IMG/VR virus record: IMGVR_UViG_3300021406_000015
Location: 1-53,213 of that record
DNA length: 53,213 bases
Source of the DNA: a virus
Strand: one strand, 5' to 3'
The notes beneath the pieces were generated by a model. The model was not told the origin of the DNA and searched no databases. It was given only the letters and a program-made list of their open reading frames with translations. Of the stretch, positions 16,182 to 16,305 are shown in pieces. The translations under genes were made by a program, and so were the position numbers. Position 1 is the first letter of the stretch, and the number at the start of each line of letters is the position of its first letter.

Positions 16182-16305
16182 TTGCGTCAAGACGTTGAGC
16201 GATTCCCTTTCGGGAACGGAATCGGAATTGAACCGACTACCCTCAGATTACAAGTCTGATGCTCTACCAAATGAGCTATCCATGTACGCTCAACAATAGA
16301 CGCAA
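16182..16305 (-). tRNA. tRNA-like element 6, tRNA-Thr(TGT) body in an extended stem
   Basis: The body is a textbook Thr tRNA: D-arm GCTC-ATTTGGTA-GAGC, anticodon arm TCAGA-CTTGTAA-TCTGA, T-arm GTCGG-TTCAATT-CCGAT. The acceptor is abnormal: GTACATGGA faces TCCG, then a hairpin TTCCC-GAAA-GGGAA, and outside these lie GTTGAGCG/CGCTCAAC and TTGCGTC/GACGCAA. No CCA is encoded. Confidence 0.65.

Follow-up and report, generated by a model that had tools for sequence, protein, structure and literature searches.

An RNA encoded on the minus strand at positions 16182–16305 of a phage genome is probably a Y RNA, the noncoding partner of a Ro60-like ring protein whose gene lies downstream. The window analyzed here is the entire 53,213-base IMG/VR virus record. 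The RNA, designated element 6, is the first in reading direction of six tRNA-like elements. The assignment is carried by its predicted structure, by conservation and covariation among its relatives, by the linkage of these RNAs to Ro genes, and by the predicted Ro fold of the downstream protein. The original prediction had offered three ideas for this RNA: a tRNA precursor, a decoy for anticodon nucleases, or a Ro60 ligand. The last fits best, and the context points to Ro binding: a Ro60-fold gene lies downstream, the array has a YrlA-like member, and related RNAs are linked to Ro in cyanobacteria.

Predicted structure of element 6

Element 6 folds with a minimum free energy of -50.4 kcal/mol (z = -4.3), and none of 200 shuffled sequences folds as well. 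Since the architecture also recurs with covariation in dozens of related loci, the fold is not attributable to chance. The two ends of the RNA form a 7-bp outer stem (UUGCGUC at 16299–16305 with GACGCAA at 16182–16188; all features are on the minus strand). An internal loop follows, with UAU on the 5′ side (16296–16298) and UCUU on the 3′ side (16189–16192), and this loop is probably the Ro-binding motif. The inner stem comprises 9 bp (UGUUGAGCG at 16287–16295 with CGCUCAACG at 16193–16201) and is re-paired with other sequence in relatives of element 6. Two long stems had been foreseen and both are present, with lengths of 7 and 9 bp instead of the proposed 8 and 7 bp. The UACAUG junction next to the inner stem (16281–16286) is common to all six array elements.

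The tRNA part extends from the D arm through the T arm (16221–16276) and is defined by the Rfam tRNA model (RF00005), the fold, and pair counts in 26 relatives. It consists of a D arm (16261–16276), an anticodon arm (16243–16259) with UGU at 16250–16252, and a T arm (16221–16237). The boundaries of the element and this complete D–anticodon–T body agree exactly with the original prediction, and a tRNA is called here by both ARAGORN and Rfam (53.2 bits). Compared with a functional tRNA-Thr(UGU), element 6 has the arms and lacks the 7-bp acceptor and the 3′ CCA. The acceptor had been described as only GGA/TCC; this 3-bp core (GGA/UCC) is correct and can be extended slightly, to AUGGA/UCCGU (5 bp including a U·G pair). 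Acceptor positions 1 and 2 are unpaired, and the unconstrained fold leaves the acceptor open. Its 3′ end is replaced in the fold by an extra hairpin, UUCCC-GAAA-GGGAA (16203–16216), as proposed. The hairpin sequence does recur in element 5, as UUCCCGAAAGGGA near 16075–16060, and relatives of element 6 also have hairpins where the acceptor 3′ end would be.

Among 15 tRNA bodies of the window examined with one script, element 6 is the only one that lacks a 6–7 bp acceptor as well as an encoded CCA; the other bodies detected by that script encode CCA and form 6–7 acceptor pairs. ARAGORN also places an intact tRNA-Thr(UGU) gene nearby (17865–17939). We considered and rejected the possibility that element 6 is a recent copy of the tRNA-Thr(UGU) of the window, as tRNA-Thr(AGU) and tRNA-Arg(ACG) give better alignments with its body. 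A sigma-70 promoter scan gave no more matches than were found in shuffled sequences. ARAGORN called 32 tRNAs in the window, all on the minus strand. Two tRNAs with the anticodon CUA (9967–10042 and 21147–21220) are amber suppressors labeled tRNA-Pyl by ARAGORN, and from these the phage may read UAG as a sense codon.

The six-element array and the downstream Ro60-like gene

The array occupies approximately 0.8 kb between a tRNA-Arg gene (16403) and an endonuclease VII-like ORF (15070–15510, minus strand; Pfam PF02945, 4e-17), which separates the array from the Ro gene. Each element contains UACAUG on the minus strand (16286, 16156, 15970, 15836, 15753, and 15585). The six elements can be drawn as a circle of tRNA parts and a Y stem that is opened at different points: with the Y stem open and the tRNA in natural order, with the Y stem open and the tRNA permuted, or with the acceptor open and the Y stem closed. 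These open and closed Y-stem classes were assigned by folding single elements. An automatic sorting of UACAUG elements proved too crude and was not used, as it left 38 of 152 undecided and matches of short stems led to false calls.

Element 6 represents a third form, in which the Y stem is open, the tRNA order is natural, and the anticodon arm is retained. In element 5 (16038–16175), a T arm comes first inside the Y stem, followed by an acceptor hairpin closed with a GUGA loop, a D arm, and an arm resembling an anticodon arm (UCA), so that the order is permuted as in YrlA with an additional anticodon-like arm. Its permuted-tRNA fold has a free energy of -53.8 kcal/mol, 1.5 kcal/mol above the free optimum of -55.3, and free-energy folding alone therefore gives no preference for the permuted arrangement. 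Element 2 (15648–15772) is a YrlA-like Y RNA, permuted and without an anticodon arm. It aligns to the whole YrlA model of Rfam (RF02553) with 32.9 bits (E = 3.9e-5), which does not reach the gathering score of 69; one element of a relative (L007) is partly aligned by the same model (27.9 bits). Element 4 (15908–16028) has an open 7-bp acceptor, an encoded CCA, a T arm, and a hairpin-capped Y stem at the place of the anticodon arm, and element 3 (15779–15899; fold z = -3.7) follows the same plan. Elements 3 and 4 are thus the opposite cut of the tRNA/Y-stem circle, with the acceptor open and the Y stem closed. Element 1 (15531–15638; z = -4.0) combines an open acceptor-like stem with a Y stem that is closed and a hairpin resembling an anticodon arm (loop CUCAAAA). 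A G3·U70 pair, the identity element of alanine tRNA, was seen by eye in the acceptors of element 4, of a relative at L002:6946–7064, and of permuted elements of L006 and L007; it is not present in all relatives.

The ORF at 13526–15052 lies 1.1 kb downstream of element 6 on the same strand and encodes a protein with a helical-repeat part and a VWA domain carrying the motif DxSGS. Pfam and NCBIfam profiles detected the VWA domain only, Pfam TROVE (PF05731) gave no score, not even a weak one, and a sequence search against PDB chains returned chance matches only. Because these searches were uninformative, structure prediction was needed. An AlphaFold2 model was built on an alignment of 30 viral sequences (mean pLDDT 82.6). 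The top 13 PDB matches of this model in Foldseek are all Ro60/TROVE proteins, including Ro60 of Thermus phage phiLo. A second aligner gave Z scores of 20.3 over 441 residues to human Ro60 (9NEN), 19.3 to Deinococcus radiodurans Rsr (2NVO), and 16.4 to phiLo Ro60 (9L5Y), while VWA-only structures reach 14.7, below the Ro60 matches. The ORF also matches PHROG_850, annotated as "RNA-binding protein" (6.7e-11). As PF05731 is silent, the evidence for Ro comes from the predicted structure plus this one PHROG, and we call the product Ro60-like, or a protein of predicted Ro60 fold, because it lacks a PF05731 sequence match. PF05731 misses every tested member of this Ro60-like clade, phage and cyanobacterial.

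Genes of the HNH/endonuclease VII type occur among the tRNA and Y RNA genes of the window at 12772–13563, 15070–15510, 17966–18517, and 49375–50454. An ORF-like insert also seems to break the Y array in two related loci (L005, 6600–7100; L023, 650–1070).

Conservation in phages and linkage to Ro in cyanobacteria

Viral relatives of the locus comprise 10 close ones and 47 from a wider scan, several of which are mutual duplicates. The close relatives have 5–8 UACAUG elements clustered upstream of a Ro-like gene. In all, about 30 related RNAs were found near Ro genes in other phages and about 80 in bacteria, mostly cyanobacteria. The nearest bacterial homologs of the Ro60-like protein are cyanobacterial proteins with 31–33% identity, and a scan of bacterial genomes yielded 80 more Ro-like loci, mostly from cyanobacteria at this level of identity. 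In these bacterial loci, too, tRNA bodies without normal acceptor ends lie upstream. All loci together contain 351 tRNA bodies, of which 87 show leader–trailer pairing with z < -3, and an ACA anchor is present in 81 of these 87.

The anticodon arm is conserved as a structure. Among 57 phage candidates found through the anchor, the D arm, and the T arm only, a perfect 5/5 anticodon stem stands at the canonical place in 32, compared with 0–1 when the partner strand is slid. In an alignment of 26 RNAs, whose rows were picked partly by their D, anticodon, and T arms, the cells of these arms are paired in 99.2% of cases, compared with 28–46% after sliding, and two-sided changes occur at each of the five anticodon-stem pairs. 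Given this selection, the 57 candidates, in whose detection the anticodon arm was not used, provide the cleaner test. RNAalifold found two-sided changes in the pairs of the inner Y stem as well. On its 5′ side, the internal loop has a family consensus close to UACUG, and on its 3′ side one close to CGACUU. This motif differs from that of textbook animal Y RNAs, which weighs against the Y RNA reading.

A tblastn search of named phages with the Ro protein matched only a 595-kb uncultured phage, LR756511, so that this Ro clade was not detected in any cultured phage. The locus of LR756511 (L011) is the most distant of the phage Ro loci and has several elements at 6500–7280 and 4140–4290. They carry UUACAAAC instead of UACAUG and the stem motif CCGAC/AACUU, and one of them contains a tRNA body with the anticodon UGU. 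Two contigs filed under Terrimicrobiaceae and WWE3 (L057 and L059) share identical Y-capped elements with the viral contigs L034 and L041 and are therefore probably phage contigs in bacterial bins. One phage contig of the group carries a permuted tmRNA gene of the two-piece type (L006:443–735; RF04321, 97.5 bits).

The linkage to Ro was examined in cyanobacteria. Across six cyanobacterial genomes searched in full, every copy of the junction GCTTACATACTAGC falls inside a Ro locus. Among 100 genomes of one cyanobacterial order, 28 contain the junction and 39 the Ro protein, and all 28 belong to the 39 Ro carriers (hypergeometric P = 3e-16, a value that ignores relatedness, as related genomes are not independent draws). 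Of the 46 junction copies, 45 precede Ro on its strand at a distance of 0.3–5.9 kb; the remaining copy is on another contig. The reversed pattern, used as a control in the 100-genome set, gave zero matches.

Possible function and relation to known systems

The two-part terminal stem of element 6, with its internal loop (UAU/UCUU), is the part most likely gripped by Ro. By analogy with known bacterial Y RNAs, such as that of Deinococcus, which tethers Rsr to PNPase (PMC8058203, PMC8394870), the stem would anchor the RNA on Ro. The far end would present a complete tRNA body in natural order, tethered by its acceptor end and showing the D–T elbow and the anticodon loop. As the body is held by its acceptor end, element 6 is probably neither matured nor charged. 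We infer that the RNA is transcribed and bound by Ro, and that its tRNA mimic either brings in or blocks a protein recognizing tRNA elbows or anticodon arms. Candidates for such a protein are nucleases (PNPase, for example), tRNA-modifying enzymes, and anticodon nucleases.

A more specific version of the Y RNA reading names the last of these as the target. The anticodon loop of the Ro-held RNA could compete for, or be sacrificed to, tRNA-cutting enzymes of the host or the phage; we consider this possible, though doubtful. The anticodon arm is conserved with covariation, and the phage elements keep U33 (34 of 37) and A38 (33 of 37), while the anticodon itself varies (18 kinds among 32 phage relatives). 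An anticodon nuclease was suggested by Hughes et al. as a target of the tRNA-like domain of YrlA (PMC7790460); having kept its anticodon arm, element 6 would suit this role better than YrlA does. However, in the one reported test, the nuclease did not use YrlA as a substrate (PMC7790460), although YrlA has no anticodon arm. Elements 2, 3, and 4 are without a canonical anticodon arm as well, and relatives nevertheless have counterparts of them. Such RNAs are also carried by bacteria. Nuclease bait would therefore not be the whole story, and the system appears to be more than a phage counter-defense.

The idea that element 6 is a precursor, in which a Ro-protected leader–trailer stem is removed by RNase P and a 3′ nuclease to release tRNA-Thr(UGU), is quite improbable. 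It agrees with the Rfam tRNA score and with several relatives that have an internal NCCA and a 6–7 bp acceptor (L011, L016, L027, L047, L050, and L051); these six phage relatives could, for this reason, still give a mature tRNA. With at most five acceptor pairs and without a CCA, element 6 itself departs from the other tRNA bodies detected in the window. This degenerate acceptor argues against the proposal, as does the intact tRNA-Thr(UGU) gene at 17865–17939. Phage Y-capped acceptors mostly have fewer than 7 pairs, and an internal NCCA is kept in about 7 of 25 members, which looks like a trace of an origin from real tRNAs. In cyanobacteria, the sequence at the acceptor position, UACAUAC/GUAUGAA, is near-constant irrespective of the anticodon. 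Furthermore, in the 32 phage relatives, whose anticodon set was compiled by hand, A34 anticodons other than ACG occur in 8, compared with 3 of 262 ordinary tRNAs from the same loci (p = 1e-6). Because the anticodon varies and is often A-initial, Y-capped RNAs are probably mimics and not decoders. From these sequence features, we conclude that element 6 is likely a non-decoding tRNA-like RNA. None of the 37 anticodon loops of phage Y-capped bodies has G34, which is frequent in ordinary tRNAs and also occurs in the cyanobacterial RNAs.

A decayed tRNA pseudogene that came by chance to lie inside a large hairpin would explain the degenerate acceptor but is extremely improbable, given the fold z score of -4.3, the covariation of stem and arms in relatives, and the constant place upstream of Ro.

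Returning to the Y RNA reading, we offer a tentative generalization. Phages and cyanobacteria may display whole but unchargeable tRNA dummies on a Ro60 ring, their anticodons free to vary, to lure or sense enzymes that cut or process tRNAs, with the circle opened at different points within one array. The unpermuted, anticodon-bearing form is common in both groups and provides a direct handle on the function of the tRNA-like domain of Y RNAs. Since tRNA finders list such RNAs as ordinary tRNA genes, some annotated phage "tRNAs", including ones with odd anticodons (AAU or UCA, for example), probably take no part in translation.

Several known RNAs share features with element 6. tmRNA and viral tRNA-like structures have a functional acceptor and CCA end and are charged. 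Element 6 shares with them tRNA mimicry within a longer RNA, but lacks the functional acceptor and CCA and, presumably, charging. Transcripts of permuted tRNA genes in algae and archaea are circularized and cut to give a normal tRNA. Their nonstandard segment order resembles that of elements 2 and 5, whereas element 6 is unpermuted; the tRNA is restored from them by circularization, whereas the array elements have their ends joined by the Y stem. Permuted RNAs have been reviewed (PMC10085705).

The protein encoded at 13526–15052 shares its predicted fold with Ro60/Rsr (TROVE) proteins, including that of phiLo (9L5Y), at about 15% sequence identity, and ROT/TROVE proteins of jumbo phages are on record (PMC7824862). 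Both tRNA mimicry by Y RNAs and phage TROVE proteins are thus already known. Among the papers we consulted, none describes the unpermuted anticodon-bearing form or the closed-Y form with CCA. We call element 6 a Y RNA of an unpermuted variant, new relative to those papers.

In keeping with Y RNAs, element 6 lies near a Ro60 gene and has a terminal stem formed by its two ends with a conserved internal loop. Its closest counterpart is YrlA (RF02553): both are encoded next to a Ro60 gene, pair their two ends into a terminal stem with an internal loop, have D and T arms like those of tRNA, and carry a conserved UAC-containing junction ahead of the tRNA part. The RF02553 model does not match element 6, which matches only tRNA in Rfam. 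The YrlA consensus runs from the Y stem through a T arm, a closed acceptor hairpin, and a D arm back to the Y stem, without an anticodon arm, and this permuted order is found in element 2 but not in element 6. In YrlA, the Y stem takes the place of the anticodon arm, whereas in element 6, it is joined at the acceptor end of a tRNA body that keeps its natural order and its anticodon arm.
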